A stretch of DNA of 64,000 nucleotides, from positions 2,131,089-2,195,088 of the forward strand of contig NZ_FWEX01000006.1 of NCBI RefSeq assembly GCF_900170025.1, written 5' to 3'. Each line of letters begins with the position of its first letter. Within the stretch, counting starts at the first letter, position 1. The translations under genes and the position numbers were made by a program. Below are positions 28,259-37,457 of the stretch, in pieces. Below the pieces are notes generated by a model. That model did no database searches, was not told the DNA's origin, and worked only from the letters and a program-made list of their open reading frames with translations. Origin of the DNA: Nitrospira sp. ND1. GTDB taxonomy: Bacteria > Nitrospirota > Nitrospiria > Nitrospirales > Nitrospiraceae.

Positions 28259-30058
28259 TCAGTGCCCTGGAATGCGAACCGGCGGCTGCTCTGCCTCTTC
28301 CGGCACATGGATCAGCGATTGGTTGGCCAGCAGGATGTAGCCGTAGCGCTCGAGTAATACCGGGTAGTCCATGGTTTCAAACGGCAGCCTGTTTCGAAGC
28401 GCCGCCGGCAGGAGAATCATTGTGCGCCCTGGCTGCGTCAGATAGGGCTTGATGTTCGCTTCTTCATTCTTCGGCACGACGATGGCGTTCCGCTTTGCAT
28501 AGAACACCAAGGAGGGGCGTGGCTGCCCGTAGAGGATCAACCGATCGTTGGGCCCGAGATTGACGCCTGCGACCTCGGCGAGTTGCTGGGGCGGTTCGAT
28601 CACAAAGTGGTGCACCAGTGGGAAGATCAACTGTGTGGTCGCAAGGACGACGAGGGCCAGCGATCCGCCGGCCACCCAGAATACGGCCGGTCGTCTCGTC
28701 TCGCTGAATCCGAAGTAGGCGATGAGGCCCATACCCACCAGGAAGATCGAAGCGACGGTATAGGGCCCCGGTCCGAGCGTCACCTGCCCCGCAAGGGGAA
28801 ATTCATCGATCAGCTTTCCTGCGAACTTGGCATAGAGGGGCGGCAATGAAGCAAAGGCCAGCGCCAATATGCAGCCTACGGCGGTGATGGTGTGGATCGC
28901 AGCGCGCAGCCCTGGAGTGGCCTGGTCGGTCACGCAGCGGTTCCAGTAGGACGCCGTCAAGATCGCCGCCGCAGGAAACAGAGGACCGATGTAATGCGGC
29001 AAGCGGGTCGAGGACAGGCTGAAAAAGACCAATCCGCCCAGGACCCAGGCGGCGGTGAACCATTCGAGTGCATGCGGCGAAGGGTGGATATCCAGCACCG
29101 AGGTCTGCGACGGAGGCAAGGCGCCGGATCGTTTCGAATCCCGCCAGCTGCGATAGGCCTGGTACCAGGCGAAAGGCAGCAGGCCGCTCCAGGGAAAAAA
29201 TCCAAGCAGGAACACGGGGAGATAAAAGACCAGCGTGCCGCCGTGCCCTTCCATGGTGCCGAAGAACCGGCCGATCGTGTCGCCCTGCGCCGAGGTCGTA
29301 TATCGCTGTCCATGGATATTCAGCATGATGAGGTACCAGGGCAACGCCAGGAGCAGGAACAGCAGGAGGCCGGGAATGGGAAATCCATGACGCCAAAAGA
29401 GCCCCCACGAGCGGGTCAGCCACAGGTGCAACCCTACCGCCAGCATGGGAATCAGGAAGCCGATCGGGCCCTTCGTCAGGGTCGCCAGCGCCATGCCGAT
29501 GTAGAAGAACCACAGGTAGTGGCGTTCACGGCCTTCTCCGTACAAACCCAGCCAGAATCCGTAGAGCGACAAGGTGGTGAAGAAGATCAACACGCTGTCG
29601 GTGAGCGCCATCCGGCTGAGGCCGATGATTTCCAGGTTCAGTAACAGCATGGCCGCGCCGAAGAGGCCCACTACCGGCCCCCGGCAGCGTGTCAGGAAGA
29701 GGTACTGGAGCAGGATCAACCCGACACCGAAGAGCGCGGAGGGGAATCGTGCGGCGAATTCGCTCACCCCGAAGACGTGATAGGAGAGACTCATCAGCCA
29801 ATAGATAAAGACCGGTTTGGCGAAGCGCGGCTCATAATTGAAGGTGGGGCTGATGTAATTGCCCGTTTCGTACATTTCGCGGCCGGCTTCGGCGTTCCGC
29901 CCTTCATCTCGATCGGTCAGTCCGAGGGAGCCGAGTCCAACGAAGAAGAGCACGGCGGCCAGTGCCAGCAAGAGGATGAGCGCCAACGGTTGGATTGACC
30001 GGTCGGCCTGCGCCGACGTCTGCGAGGACGGCTGCTGCCCATTCATGTGAAGTTCCAT
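28259..30058 (-). CDS. GT39 family glycosyltransferase (ArnT/PMT-like)
   Basis: A 599-residue integral membrane glycosyltransferase using lipid-linked sugar donors, as ArnT does on lipid A. The catalytic GLTDRDEGRNAEAGREMYET loop after the first helix is the family hallmark. It is followed by many transmembrane segments and the KPVFIYWLMSLSYHVFG region. The ATG at 30058 is chosen because it overlaps the TAA of the upstream gene by 1 nt; the frame extends further upstream but only as a shadow of the neighbours. Its 3' end abuts the palindromic repeat. It operates with the GT2 and LABN proteins encoded upstream. Confidence 0.88.
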   Translation of the reverse strand: MELHMNGQQPSSQTSAQADRSIQPLALILLLALAAVLFFVGLGSLGLTDRDEGRNAEAGREMYETGNYISPTFNYEPRFAKPVFIYWLMSLSYHVFGVSEFAARFPSALFGVGLILLQYLFLTRCRGPVVGLFGAAMLLLNLEIIGLSRMALTDSVLIFFTTLSLYGFWLGLYGEGRERHYLWFFYIGMALATLTKGPIGFLIPMLAVGLHLWLTRSWGLFWRHGFPIPGLLLFLLLALPWYLIMLNIHGQRYTTSAQGDTIGRFFGTMEGHGGTLVFYLPVFLLGFFPWSGLLPFAWYQAYRSWRDSKRSGALPPSQTSVLDIHPSPHALEWFTAAWVLGGLVFFSLSSTRLPHYIGPLFPAAAILTASYWNRCVTDQATPGLRAAIHTITAVGCILALAFASLPPLYAKFAGKLIDEFPLAGQVTLGPGPYTVASIFLVGMGLIAYFGFSETRRPAVFWVAGGSLALVVLATTQLIFPLVHHFVIEPPQQLAEVAGVNLGPNDRLILYGQPRPSLVFYAKRNAIVVPKNEEANIKPYLTQPGRTMILLPAALRNRLPFETMDYPVLLERYGYILLANQSLIHVPEEAEQPPVRIPGH

Positions 30059-30357
30059 TAGGATTTTGTCGCCGGAGATGCCGTGCCGGAATCGGCTTGG
30101 TTGGGGCGATGAATCAGCATGAGATTGCGCAGATAGACGATGCTGCCGATGCTTTGCCCGGCGATAAACACCGGATCCTGCCGATAGATCGCATAGGCCA
30201 GCGTAATCAGCCCGCCGATCATACTCATGTACCAGAAGGCAGTCGGCACGCGACTTTCCGCATGGCGCTCGGAGGCGATCCATTGCACGACCCAGCGCAT
30301 AAAGAAGATCCCCTGCCCCAGGAATCCGATAATCAGCCAGATGGTGTCGAGTGTCAT
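30058..30357 (-). CDS. Lipid A biosynthesis N-terminal domain protein (LABN)
   Basis: A 99-residue membrane protein with three helices. Motifs IIGFLGQGIFFMRWVVQWIA, SERHAESRVPTAFWYMSMIG and GGLITLAYAIYRQDPVFIAG define the small lipid A biosynthesis N-terminal domain, found beside lipid-glycosylation enzymes. The ATG at 30357 overlaps the GT2 stop (ATGA) and its stop overlaps the GT39 start, so the three are one translational unit. The biochemical role of the domain is not established; a flippase-like or scaffold function is inferred. Confidence 0.87.
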   Translation of the reverse strand: MTLDTIWLIIGFLGQGIFFMRWVVQWIASERHAESRVPTAFWYMSMIGGLITLAYAIYRQDPVFIAGQSIGSIVYLRNLMLIHRPNQADSGTASPATKS

Positions 30358-31130
30358 AGTCGTGTGGGGGCCAAGGCCGAAGGCGATGATGTCGTCGCGG
30401 CGGCACGGTATTGGTAGCGCAGGCAACGGTGCTGCATCCATCGCACGGCCACCAGGTCGTACAGGCCTTTGAAGAGACGGTTGCCGACGCCGTATTTCGA
30501 CGTGCCCCGGGTGCGTGGATAGTGGCGCACCGGCACCTCGGTGACGGTGAACCCATGCATCAGGGCGAGGGCGGGAAAGAATCGGTGCATGCCCTCGAAG
30601 AGCTGCATTTTTTCCACCACCGGGCGGCGAAACAGTTTGAGCGAGCAACCGGTGTCGTGTACCCGGTCGCCGGTGACCGCGCTGCGGACGGTGTTGGCAA
30701 TACGGGAGGAAATCTTGCGTGTCAGGTTGTCATGTCGGTCTTTGCGCCAGCCGCAGACGAGGTCGAAGGTCTTGATGTGCGGAAGCAGCGTGGCGATATC
30801 CGCCGGATCGTTTTGCAGGTCGCCGTCGATGGTCAAGACCAGTTCCCCTGTCGACTGCTTGAATCCCGCATCGAAAGCCGCCGATTGCCCGTAGTTCCGG
30901 TCGAAGTGAAAGACCTTCACCGTGGGGTATCGGGTGGCCAGATCATCGAGCACGTCTGAACTGCCGTCCGAACTACCATCGTCGATGAAGATCAATTCGA
31001 ACGGGGCCGAACGCGACTCTTCCCGGCCGCCCAGGACCGTCACAAGTTGCTCAGTCAGTGGCACCAGATTGTCGCGCTCATCCTTGATGGGGATGACTAC
31101 GGAAGCCCATGGGCGGGTCACTACAGTCAT
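30354..31130 (-). CDS. GT2 family polyprenyl-phosphate glycosyltransferase (ArnC/DPM-like)
   Basis: A 258-residue GT-A fold transferase with ASVVIPIKDERDNLVPL, FIDDGSSDGSSDVL, NYGQSAAFDAGF and the DxD-containing TIDGDLQNDP, followed by DTGCSLKLFRR and RHYPRTRGTSKYG. This pattern matches dolichyl/undecaprenyl-phosphate mannose or aminoarabinose synthases. It has no C-terminal transmembrane anchor. It probably makes the lipid-linked sugar used by the GT39 enzyme two genes downstream. The sugar cannot be deduced. Confidence 0.88.
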   Translation of the reverse strand: MTVVTRPWASVVIPIKDERDNLVPLTEQLVTVLGGREESRSAPFELIFIDDGSSDGSSDVLDDLATRYPTVKVFHFDRNYGQSAAFDAGFKQSTGELVLTIDGDLQNDPADIATLLPHIKTFDLVCGWRKDRHDNLTRKISSRIANTVRSAVTGDRVHDTGCSLKLFRRPVVEKMQLFEGMHRFFPALALMHGFTVTEVPVRHYPRTRGTSKYGVGNRLFKGLYDLVAVRWMQHRCLRYQYRAAATTSSPSALAPTRL

Positions 31131-31253: not shown

Positions 31254-32948
31254 TCACGAATCGAGCGAAATCCGACGATCAACAAAGGCAGAGAAGTTCG
31301 GATCGTTGGAGAGAAAGATGACCGACCAGGGCTCGTCCTTGGCGCAGAGACGGCGAAGCAGCACCTCTCGCGTGGCGGGCAGCATGTTGTGGAGCGTGCC
31401 GTCGAAGATCAGTAGTTGCGGCCGTATCACAATCGCGCGGGCCATGAGAAGCCGTAGGATCTGACTCATGGAGAGGTTGGTGTCCAGGCTGGACACGCGC
31501 GTGTTCAATCCCTGCGGCAACGCATCGATCTCGTGATCCAGTTCCACGAACCGGAGCGCCCATTGGAGGTCTTGATAGTCGATCGTGGGTCGGCCAAGTG
31601 TGATGTTGTCTTCGAGCGTGCCGTCCAGCAGCGTGGGATGGGAGTCGAGGACAAGGCCGCGAACCCGGCTGATCGAATCGCGTTTCACTTCTATTAGATT
31701 CATATCGTTGTACCGGACGAACCCGGATGCCGGCGGGTGTAGTCCGGCCAGGACCTTGGCAAGAGCGGTCTTCGCGTTGTTCGTGCTGCAGAGGACCGCC
31801 ACCTTCTCGCCGGGGGCGACATCGAGGGACACGTTCTCAAAGATCGGAGTGCCATCCGGACCGGTATAGGTCAGGTTTCGGCACGTCAGGTGGATGCCGG
31901 CCGCTCCGAACTGTGCCGCCGGCACGTCTTCCTTCGCGCCGTCCTCTTCTGTGGGCAGGGAGAACACCGCGGCCATCTCCCGGCAGGACACGAAGGTGAA
32001 AAACATCGCGACCATACGTCGAGCCAAGGTATCCATGTTGATCAGCAGGTTGCCGACCAACACCTCGGCGGCGGCGAATTGCCCCACGGTAAGTTGTCCG
32101 TCCGCCACCAGGAGTCCGGCGGTGATGAGCAGCCCGCTGTGGCCGGCGACTTGCCAGAGCGCTGCGGCTTTGTATTGCCTCCCGGTGAGTGTGTCGGACC
32201 GGCGCTGTCGAATTCTGGCATACATGCGGGTCAGTGTATCGGTTCGTTCAAGGAGATAGGGGCTGTCGCCGGCGGCTCGCAGATGGGGAAGATTGTGCGC
32301 GATGTTTTGAATCCACCCGAAAATATCGTAGTGGAGCCGGGACATCTCCAGAGTGATGAAGAAGCCGCCGCGCCCGAAGAGGGTCAGTAATCCCACAAAG
32401 CCTAGAATCAGTACGAGAATGTAGAGAACGAAGAAGGGGTGAAACAGGATCAGCATGGTCACGCCGATGGTACCGACCACGGCGACGTTAAACAGATCCG
32501 CCACCATGGCTACCAATGCGCGTGTCAGCAGGTCGGCCTCCATGAACCGGTAGGCCTGCGGCGTGGCGAACGTATCGTCGCGGAGGCGGGGCAGGAGACG
32601 TGTGAACCCGATCGCGATGCGCGTGTAGATCCGCTGTTGGAATGTCTCCACTGCGCGCGCCTGCAGCACACGGAATGCCGCGACGCCGGTCAGCGAACTG
32701 GCGACGAACAGGGCCAGTGTAAAGATCATGCGGGGTTCCATCGCAAAGGAGAACGTGCTGACGAGCTCCTGGACGGCAATGGGGACACAGAGGAGGAAGA
32801 AGCCGATGGCAACTGCATACGAGGCGATGATGCCCAGGATCGATCGCTCCAGCTTCAGCAGCATGCCCAGGTGGGCGAAAATATCGCGAAGGATCTCGGT
32901 CAGCTGATACTGGGGATAGGTCGGGGTTGTTGTGGGGCGCTGGTTCAC
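31254..32948 (-). CDS. ABC exporter-like protein with degenerate ATPase domain
   Basis: A 564-residue fusion of a six-helix ABC-exporter membrane domain (about residues 30-330) with a C-terminal nucleotide-binding domain. The fold is recognisable, but the catalytic motifs are altered: Walker A reads CSTNNAKT around K393 without the glycines, the signature is LSMSQ at 492-496, Walker B ends FDG (D516, G517) instead of DE, and the switch His is Asn (SNDP). Lys and Thr of Walker A are kept, so nucleotide may bind without efficient hydrolysis. It starts at GTG 32948 behind TAGGAG. Confidence 0.8.
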   Translation of the reverse strand: MNQRPTTTPTYPQYQLTEILRDIFAHLGMLLKLERSILGIIASYAVAIGFFLLCVPIAVQELVSTFSFAMEPRMIFTLALFVASSLTGVAAFRVLQARAVETFQQRIYTRIAIGFTRLLPRLRDDTFATPQAYRFMEADLLTRALVAMVADLFNVAVVGTIGVTMLILFHPFFVLYILVLILGFVGLLTLFGRGGFFITLEMSRLHYDIFGWIQNIAHNLPHLRAAGDSPYLLERTDTLTRMYARIRQRRSDTLTGRQYKAAALWQVAGHSGLLITAGLLVADGQLTVGQFAAAEVLVGNLLINMDTLARRMVAMFFTFVSCREMAAVFSLPTEEDGAKEDVPAAQFGAAGIHLTCRNLTYTGPDGTPIFENVSLDVAPGEKVAVLCSTNNAKTALAKVLAGLHPPASGFVRYNDMNLIEVKRDSISRVRGLVLDSHPTLLDGTLEDNITLGRPTIDYQDLQWALRFVELDHEIDALPQGLNTRVSSLDTNLSMSQILRLLMARAIVIRPQLLIFDGTLHNMLPATREVLLRRLCAKDEPWSVIFLSNDPNFSAFVDRRISLDS

Positions 32949-32951
32949 AGA

Positions 32952-32983
32952 AACTCCTACCGCGTTGGGCGCTGGTAGGAGTT
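32952..32983 (-). promoter_or_regulatory. Hairpin sequestering the ribosome-binding site of the ABC-like gene
   Basis: Read on the minus strand, AACTCCTACC and GGTAGGAGTT form a perfect 10-bp stem with a 12-nt loop. The downstream arm contains the TAGGAG Shine-Dalgarno, 5 nt before the GTG start, so the stem would block ribosome access. Confidence 0.5.
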
Positions 32984-33406: not shown

Positions 33407-34138
33407 TTAGCGGAGGAAGAGGGACTTGAAGATCAGGGCCGTGCCGGACAAAAAGAGAAATGCGGCGAAGGTGGTGCGGTATCGTTCGGTGCTCATCTTG
33501 CTATAGAGCAGCAGTTCGGTAGCCAGAAACATGCTCACGCCCACTGCCATGTAAAGTGCGGTGTCGGAGGTGGCAATTGCAGAAGGACCGAGGGAGATGC
33601 CCAACGTGACGAGTTGAAACAGCGCGAACGTGCCGTAGGACAGGGCGGTCGTGGCGCGGGTCTGATCTTTGTCGTACTGTTTGCTGTGGATGATGGCCGT
33701 CAACAGCGAGCCACCCAGATTGGTCAGGCCATGAACAACGCCCATCACGATGAAATAGGTGCGCTCATATCGCACCAGCGACTCGATCAACCGATTGAAC
33801 GGCACATAGATGCTCTTGAGCGCCGCGACGATCAAGAAGAGCCCGACAATGCTGCCGATGTTCAGCTTGAGTGTTGTGACCAGCAGGAGACACAGCACCA
33901 CGCAGGGAATCGACAGAGTGAGGACCTGCCGGTAGAAGGGCACCTGGACGTGTCGGTAGTCCTTGCTGACTTGTAGCAGGTTGATGGTCAGCGAGATCGG
34001 GAGGAGGATAGTCAGGGCGGTGATGAAGTCATAGCCGAGCACGAGGAGGATCGGAGTCCCGAACAGCAGCACTCCCACGCCGAAGAGCGACTGGATGGTG
34101 GCCGTCAGGAGGATGGTCGCAAGAATGTCCCACTGCAT
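33407..34138 (-). CDS. TSUP/TauE-SafE family permease
   Basis: A 243-residue polytopic membrane protein. It starts IQSLFGVGVLLFGTPILLVL, the glycine-rich first TSUP repeat, and carries GVVHGLTNLGGSLLTAI, the second-repeat signature of the sulfite-exporter family. About seven to eight hydrophobic segments are visible. TSUP proteins move organic or inorganic sulfur anions or related small anions; the substrate is unknown. The gene is monocistronic, with its 3' end at the palindromic repeat. Confidence 0.8.
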   Translation of the reverse strand: MQWDILATILLTATIQSLFGVGVLLFGTPILLVLGYDFITALTILLPISLTINLLQVSKDYRHVQVPFYRQVLTLSIPCVVLCLLLVTTLKLNIGSIVGLFLIVAALKSIYVPFNRLIESLVRYERTYFIVMGVVHGLTNLGGSLLTAIIHSKQYDKDQTRATTALSYGTFALFQLVTLGISLGPSAIATSDTALYMAVGVSMFLATELLLYSKMSTERYRTTFAAFLFLSGTALIFKSLFLR

Positions 34139-36778: not shown

Positions 36779-37063
36779 ATGTTTGGTTCGTTTGGCTGGA
36801 TGGAGCTGTTGCTGATTCTCATCATCGTCCTGATCATCTTCGGTGCGGGGAAAATTCCCCAGCTCGGTGAGGGATTAGGTAAAGCAATCAAGGGGTTCAA
36901 GAAATCGGTTCACGAAGCAGATGCTATTGACGTGACGGCCACCGAGGCGGAACCTGCCCCGGCTCAGCCTGCGGCACAGATCCAGCAAACCGGACAGCCG
37001 GCTACACCGCCGCCTGCGCAACAGGCCGGTGCGGCTCCACCGCCACGGACGACGCAGGGGTAA
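36779..37063 (+). CDS. tatA: Twin-arginine translocase subunit TatA/E type
   Basis: A 94-residue protein: a single N-terminal transmembrane helix ([20 protein letters not shown]), the conserved [20 protein letters not shown] hinge and amphipathic helix, then an acidic and Pro/Ala/Gln-rich tail. TatA oligomers form the pore for folded proteins. AAGGAG lies 11 nt before the ATG. No tatC is in the window. Confidence 0.92.
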
Positions 37064-37157
37064 CTTGCGAAACTGAGGATGCAGACCGAATGACGGCGAT
37101 GTGATCTCGGAGTCCCGCCGCTCGGTCTTCAGCACACCCCCCTCAGTATGGAACACC

Positions 37158-37457
37158 ATGTTCGGTCTTGGCGCTGGTGAAATTCTCATAATCCTGGTCA
37201 TTGCGTTCCTGCTCTTCGGGCCCAAGCAGTTGCCTGAGATCGGGCGTCAGGTGGGCAAGGCCGTGAAAGGATTTAAAGAAACGGCGGACGATCTGAAGAA
37301 GACGGTTGAGCCGGAGCTCAACATGATTCAGCAGGAAATGAAAATGGTGGAGCAGGATTTCGAGTCGTCGATGAAGGAAGCGGAAGAACAGATTAACCAC
37401 GCAACATCGGGCGTAGAGCACGGGGCAGAGGAATCGGGTTTGCCCAAGCAGGCCTAA
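37158..37457 (+). CDS. Twin-arginine translocase subunit TatA/TatB type
   Basis: A 99-residue protein with MFGLGAGEILIILVIAFLLF, then GPKQLPEIGRQVGKAVKGF, and a long charged amphipathic helix (KKTVEPELNMIQQEMKMVEQ). The longer charged helix is reminiscent of TatB, but the FGPKQLPEIGR hinge also fits TatA. The ATG at 37158 lies 94 nt after the first tat gene. The two probably form one unit. Confidence 0.85.
   Translation: MFGLGAGEILIILVIAFLLFGPKQLPEIGRQVGKAVKGFKETADDLKKTVEPELNMIQQEMKMVEQDFESSMKEAEEQINHATSGVEHGAEESGLPKQA

Follow-up and report, generated by a model that had tools for sequence, protein, structure and literature searches.

ABC exporters take their name from the ATP-binding cassette and are thought to be driven by ATP. 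The described systems closest to the locus presented here are the type I secretion exporters HlyB, PrtD and LssB: the fold, a six-helix transmembrane domain (TMD) and a nucleotide-binding domain (NBD), is the same, with HlyB as the best structural match, and most members of our family outside the type of the gene studied here likewise adjoin HlyD- and TolC-type genes. Unlike these exporters, the family lacks the hydrolysis motifs, three of its members have no NBD, and the copy studied here has no linked HlyD or TolC genes. Loss of the Walker B glutamate and of other motifs is also seen in one half of TM287/288, BmrCD, TAP and MsRv1273c/72c. Those heterodimers, however, keep one canonical site, whereas here no canonical partner gene was present in the operons that we read or among the nearest paralogues.

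The results on proton-driven transport by LmrA and MsbA reportedly come from one research group. The membrane domains LmrA-MD and MsbA-MD are described as exporter TMDs that carry out proton-linked transport without NBDs, and E314, an acidic residue in TM6 of LmrA, as required for proton coupling (PMC2704374, PMC4979069, PMC6155054). As described there, these are laboratory truncations of canonical exporters, whereas the NBD loss in our family is natural and fixed. HlyD-type proteins without a working ABC ATPase were described at SecA_DEAD loci, including one Nitrospirae species (Kamneva 2015, PMC4452313). According to that description those loci contain no ABC homologue and a SecA-like ATPase was proposed; here an ABC-derived subunit is present, which sets our case apart from a SecA-type replacement ATPase. 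We found no description of such a degenerate exporter family in searches of the open-access PMC literature, which is weak evidence that the family is undescribed.

Results

The window, that is, the whole 64,000-nucleotide stretch of Nitrospira sp. ND1 DNA that was analysed, carries a degenerate-NBD ABC exporter gene at 31254–32948 on the minus strand, as identified by translation and Pfam. The gene had been taken to be intact, and rightly so: the open reading frame runs for 564 amino acids from a GTG start without an internal stop, and an AGGAG about 5 bases upstream of the GTG (32954–32958, minus strand) is its likely ribosome-binding site. The TMD covers residues 22–338 (31935–32885, minus strand; delimited by the model helices and used for the trees below) and the NBD residues 345–563 (31260–31916, minus strand). 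The NBD matches PF00005 (ABC_tran) at 42.8 bits, above the curated cut-off of 25. This was the sole match in the Pfam search, which found neither ABC_membrane nor a peptidase-like domain. The AlphaFold2 model, built on an 82-row alignment, is a complete exporter half (mean pLDDT 86.3, pTM 0.79), and its best PDB match is HlyB as solved in the HlyB/D complex (Foldseek E 6.7e-25; VIA-align Z 29.6, 3.0 Å over 536 residues). The NBD fold is retained as well (Z 25.4 and 1.9 Å over 221 residues against the TAP1 NBD), so that model and PDB match agree on the exporter fold of a six-helix TMD followed by an NBD. The curated NCBIfam type I secretion models all scored below their cut-offs (LssB 120.6 of 693.1 bits, HlyB 90.2 of 725.55, PrtD 84.9 of 510.15). 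Since its PF00005 match exceeds the cut-off and its model matches HlyB, the window protein is a true ABC protein.

The original prediction had read four ABC motifs as altered, and all the quoted strings are present in the window protein, at the positions given by translation and family alignment (all on the minus strand). The motif names and consensus sequences assigned to these positions are those we take to be standard. CSTNNAKT, at the Walker A position (31767–31790), has no P-loop glycine and keeps Lys393-Thr394; the signature position reads LSMSQ (31461–31475); at the Walker B position, LLIFDG (31398–31415, the quoted FDG included), Asp516 is kept and Gly517 replaces the catalytic glutamate; and in SNDP, at the H-loop position (31299–31310), Asn548 replaces histidine. 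The alterations go beyond that list, with Asp435 replacing the Q-loop glutamine (31644–31646) and the D-loop reading TLHN. Near-invariant in the family are His520 in the former D-loop (31389–31391; 125 of 126 rows) and Trp212 (32313–32315; at least 97% of the 126 rows), which lies in a region aligned with what we take to be coupling helix 2 and is a different residue in 12 of 12 working-type exporters.

These counts refer to a family alignment. Of 200 profile hits, 193 belonged to the family and 7 were ordinary ABC proteins under 100 bits; the 193 hits gave 144 distinct rows, 126 of them full-length, the window gene included. The motif count leaves aside fragments, the two NBD-less rows then known and one frame-broken row (L179). 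Two of the 126 rows are identical over their last 450 residues and merge to give 125 distinct ones. The profile scan of genome contigs retained at least 78 loci. Apart from L131, whose contig is titled Acidimicrobiia, all 126 rows stem from records of Nitrospirota or from genomes in the same order; the L131 contig, perhaps wrongly binned, carries a copy resembling those of Nitrospira together with HlyD and OMF genes.

None of the 126 rows has the Walker B glutamate, the H-loop histidine (one row is gapped there), GxxGxGK[ST] or LSGGQ. The looser P-loop [AG]x4GK[ST] occurs in two of them, and also in Riemerella; almost all rows have other residues in place of the P-loop glycines. The Walker B glutamate position is occupied by glycine (124 rows) or serine (2) and the Q-loop position by aspartate in 121 rows. 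Parts of the family NBD are strongly conserved, and the Walker A lysine is present in 115 rows (Arg in 9, Gly in 2) and the threonine in 104. The lysine, Gly517, His520, Asp435 and Glu295 are found together in all 27 full-length genes of the window type.

Alignment with homologues, proposed as a check in the original prediction, therefore finds the motif loss in 126 of 126 full-length rows, and so fixed in the family. Because no row is canonical and the gene is under purifying selection (see below), recent decay is ruled out. Judged from these fixed changes, a non-hydrolysing character of the window protein, as had been suggested, is strongly supported, whereas the accompanying idea of a sensor or regulator received no direct support.

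Two irregular copies were seen in draft genomes. In a fragmented draft, the window-type gene L105 (G010:C270:12509-14200) contains an in-frame TAG, as does another family copy there. In L179 (G186:C4:249621-251265), TMD and NBD lie in different, slightly overlapping frames, through either a frame break or a natural split.

The window gene is under purifying selection. Against ten orthologues, dN/dS was 0.030–0.063 for the TMD and 0.070–0.159 for the NBD; the control, one canonical paralogue in ten pairs, gave 0–0.060 and 0–0.065, respectively, all values being simple pairwise Nei-Gojobori counts from our own script that are near saturation in distant pairs. Compared with the control, the NBD is thus under weaker constraint than a working one, though still clearly constrained; the TMD is constrained to the same degree as that of the working exporter.

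In the same genome, two relatives of the window gene (51% and 47% identity) lie in tandem about 86 kb away. They are as degenerate as the window protein. Genes of the TolC and HlyD types precede the pair, and the gene of a protein with a four-helix-bundle sensory domain follows it. At one such locus (L031, 3018–3806, minus strand) this MCP-like sensory protein (PF12729) comes directly after the tandem degenerate pair, and its gene cluster (c21) was found in four compared loci. The degeneracy exceeds what chance would give: among the own-genome PF00005 matches spanning at least 130 of the 137 positions, the three lowest scores (46.5, 41.7 and 37.8 bits; the next 65.1) belong to the window protein and its two paralogues, and in four exporters of the genome that were aligned alongside, Walker A, Walker B and the H-loop are of the ordinary kind, with LSVGQ as signature in one and LSGGE in another. 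A window-type gene (at least 80% identity) is listed in 20 of 29 genomes of the genus, own genome included, and each of these 20 also lists a copy at 46–52%, the class of the tandem pair.

The window gene is followed, 123 bases downstream, by a glycosyltransferase family 2 gene (30354–31130; PF00535, 98.2 bits) and then by two open reading frames whose true starts are probably further in, one with a lipid A biosynthesis N-terminal domain (30058–30648; PF07578) and one with a PMT-type glycosyltransferase domain (28259–30556; PF02366, PF13231). Upstream lies the gene of a 243-aa protein without a Pfam match (33407–34138); all four are on the minus strand. Elsewhere in the window, on the plus strand (36779–37457), two short adjacent genes resemble what we take to be TatA/TatB-type proteins. 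Across six window-type loci (the window and L086–L090), the PMT-type transferase cluster and two upstream clusters (203 aa; methyltransferase) are present in all six and the 243-aa protein in five. A GT2 gene was called in four and a LAB_N gene in three by a simple gene caller that missed both of these in the window, where Pfam detects them. In L090, an MFS gene and genes of two-component clusters are interposed among the window-type neighbours.

Within four genes on either strand, a HlyD-type gene was found for 78 and an OMF gene for 76 of the 92 rows outside the window type, and neither a HlyD nor an OMF/TolC-type gene for any of 19 window-type rows. These 111 rows lie in loci of at least 9 kb; four of the 92 are fragments, two from one broken window-type gene and two from another gene. 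The window copy, with glycosyltransferase genes as neighbours and no HlyD/TolC gene of its own, is an orphan paralogue. A fourth orphan type (L081, 7287–11828, plus strand) adjoins a histidine kinase and an NtrC-type regulator, identified by Pfam in L081; L082 and L084, of the same type, have the same two-component neighbours by clustering. In L180, L181, L193 (genus code g6) and similar loci, three OMF-type ORFs precede the ABC gene and HlyD follows it.

A relative is present in 20 of the 48 genomes of family f3, which belongs to the same order, and the four full-length f3 members whose motifs were inspected have lost the Walker A lysine too. G056, G058 and G240, three genomes that share a genus, encode a protein that stops after the TMD, at 337–346 aa, behind HlyD and OMF genes; in G052 and G059, of the same genus, it is full length. 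The absence of the NBD was encountered in these three genomes, and the window protein has its NBD. Downstream of the gene, tblastn at two of the NBD-less loci detected no NBD remnant (the best hit, E 0.043, lies within a different gene), and at the third only 155 bases separate the gene from the next. Neither was a detached family NBD found in the three genomes. Their best NBD matches (E 1.0e-22, 9.9e-21 and 7.2e-21, in frames of 744, 739 and 584 aa) resemble the background in G052 and G059, where the family NBD itself scores 4e-52 and 2e-52, and a detached NBD was therefore rejected. The three proteins form a single clade nested among full-length f3 members in the tree. For one pair, residues 1–315 gave dN 0.106 and dS 0.451 (dN/dS about 0.23), with about 0.17 and 0.15 for the neighbouring OMF and HlyD genes. 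In the model of one NBD-less protein, which is of moderate confidence (pLDDT 72), the pattern of long helices is preserved. Two further genomes, G261 and G267, yielded nothing but pieces, located at contig ends or spread over two contigs, and were left out of the NBD-less tally.

In a sample of the phylum, 45 of 198 genomes matched at E ≤1e-40, all of them from f1 and f3, two families in the same order. Spread across phyla rests on a plasmid collection and the 11 loci read there, with relatives in Persicobacter, Aureibacter and Riemerella (Bacteroidota) and in Sphingomonadales. HlyD- and TolC-type genes are adjacent in 10 of the 11 loci (two by profile, the rest by annotation, which in one case reads "biotin/lipoyl-binding protein"), and the locus of Sphingobium TKS contains neither. 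None of the 11 relatives has the Asp-Glu pair, LSGGQ or a histidine in the H-loop column. Two (L214 and L219) have a glutamate in the Walker B column without the preceding aspartate, one (L210) has a histidine one position past the H-loop column, and L219, from Riemerella, keeps a GxxxxGKS P-loop. The Riemerella "plasmid" record carries rplU and murB near the ABC-HlyD-TolC genes and may be a piece of chromosome.

In a tree built on the TMD alone, 28 degenerate rows fall on one side of a branch (support 99/99) and 12 comparison exporters on the other. The latter all retain the Walker B Asp-Glu and the H-loop histidine, one (L252) with an altered signature. Branches on the comparison side are long; the one nearest the family leads to an Azospirillum row, is very long and is weakly supported, and intermediate canonical relatives may exist in genomes outside the sample. 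H170 was dropped as a family-only mark, being found in 2 of the 12 comparison exporters.

Glu295 (32064–32066, minus strand) is a conserved carboxylate in the last membrane helix, TM6, of the family alignment. Of the 130 rows whose TMD is complete, 124 have Glu and the other 6 Gln at this position; all 11 cross-phylum relatives have Glu. None of the 12 comparison exporters does: their residues are V, L, N, L, S, F, Q, L, M, Y, N and S.

Discussion

The family has lost its hydrolysis motifs, or the whole NBD, yet it is under selection and usually sits beside HlyD-TolC parts, and for these reasons it probably works without burning ATP. The reading we lean towards, from sequence comparison, is that of an ABC-derived subunit of a tripartite exporter with a pseudo-ATPase NBD, which would move or gate its substrate without ATP hydrolysis. 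In such a scheme, an HlyB/PrtD-like family would have turned its NBD into a structural pseudo-ATPase. The membrane domains would dimerise and dock on the HlyD adaptor and the TolC-like channel, and the substrate would be moved or gated by the proton-motive force or by its own gradient. The residual NBD may serve as a dimer clamp or a cytoplasmic docking platform. The conserved TM6 glutamate would be the candidate proton site: by analogy, Glu295 may play the role of E314 in LmrA, to which we liken it by helix and residue type rather than by positional alignment, and the drive would possibly be protons, as in the engineered LmrA and MsbA membrane domains. As for the window copy, to judge by its neighbours its pairing partner is probably a second copy of itself or one of the tandem copies, and its task probably lies in envelope-lipid or export work.

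A bolder reading, which we hold to be less likely than not, is that of a natural family, spread over at least three phyla (Nitrospirota, Bacteroidota and Pseudomonadota), whose exporter TMDs would have become proton-driven, secondary-active pumps of a tripartite HlyD-TolC system, the ATPase domain having first been silenced, then turned into a scaffold and finally, in one lineage, lost.

Since the Walker A Lys/Thr and parts of the NBD are conserved, nucleotide binding or a regulatory role may be considered. The protein would then bind ATP without hydrolysing it and, through Lys-Thr, switch a channel or partner, acting as a sensor rather than a motor. Lys393 is indeed present in 115 of the 126 rows and without exception in the 27 window-type genes, the NBD is under purifying selection and Riemerella retains GxxxxGKS; the sensory-domain or two-component genes adjoining some copies are weak hints in the same direction. 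On the other hand, the P-loop glycines are gone in nearly all rows, the Walker A lysine has become Arg or Gly in 11 of 126, three genomes manage without any NBD, and most relatives outside the window type adjoin HlyD- and TolC-type genes. Such a regulator or gate overlaps in part with our preferred reading, so the two are not mutually exclusive, but we regard it as doubtful, and the sensor or regulator interpretation as such has little support.

Somewhat less probable still is that the TMD merely anchors the HlyD-TolC channel, as a passive conduit or scaffold without translocation of its own against a gradient. The conserved core does consist of the membrane domain and the HlyD-TolC linkage, and the TMD of the window gene is more constrained than its NBD. 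However, conservation of an entire exporter-type TMD together with a membrane carboxylate would seem to exceed what an anchor needs.

Heterodimers with one degenerate site are described as common (PMC7756269), and the window protein might accordingly be the obligate degenerate half of a pair like TM287/288 or TAP, whose other half is an intact ABC protein. The search for an intact paralogue, another check proposed for this gene, came back empty: the nearest paralogues, including the partner in the tandem pair, are equally degenerate, and the intact exporters of the genome are only 23–26% identical to the window protein over partial matches and located elsewhere, leaving no candidate by sequence among the own-genome paralogues, although a gene elsewhere may still encode a physical partner. 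Furthermore, many relatives, those in the f3 and the annotated cross-phylum operons included, are the single ABC gene of their operon. We therefore consider this explanation very improbable. A decaying pseudogene, for which one could cite the interrupted copies (stop or frame break) of two individual drafts, G010 and G186, is hardly credible against a window-lineage dN/dS far below 1 and corresponding losses throughout an order and beyond.

A non-hydrolysing exporter subunit, as we prefer to read it, also bears on annotation: five of the plasmid-collection relatives are recorded as "ABC transporter ATP-binding protein", a label that is misleading for such proteins. Conserved, selected, linked to HlyD/TolC and with intermediates up to the complete loss of the NBD, the family would offer a natural test of whether an ABC membrane domain can act as a secondary transporter.
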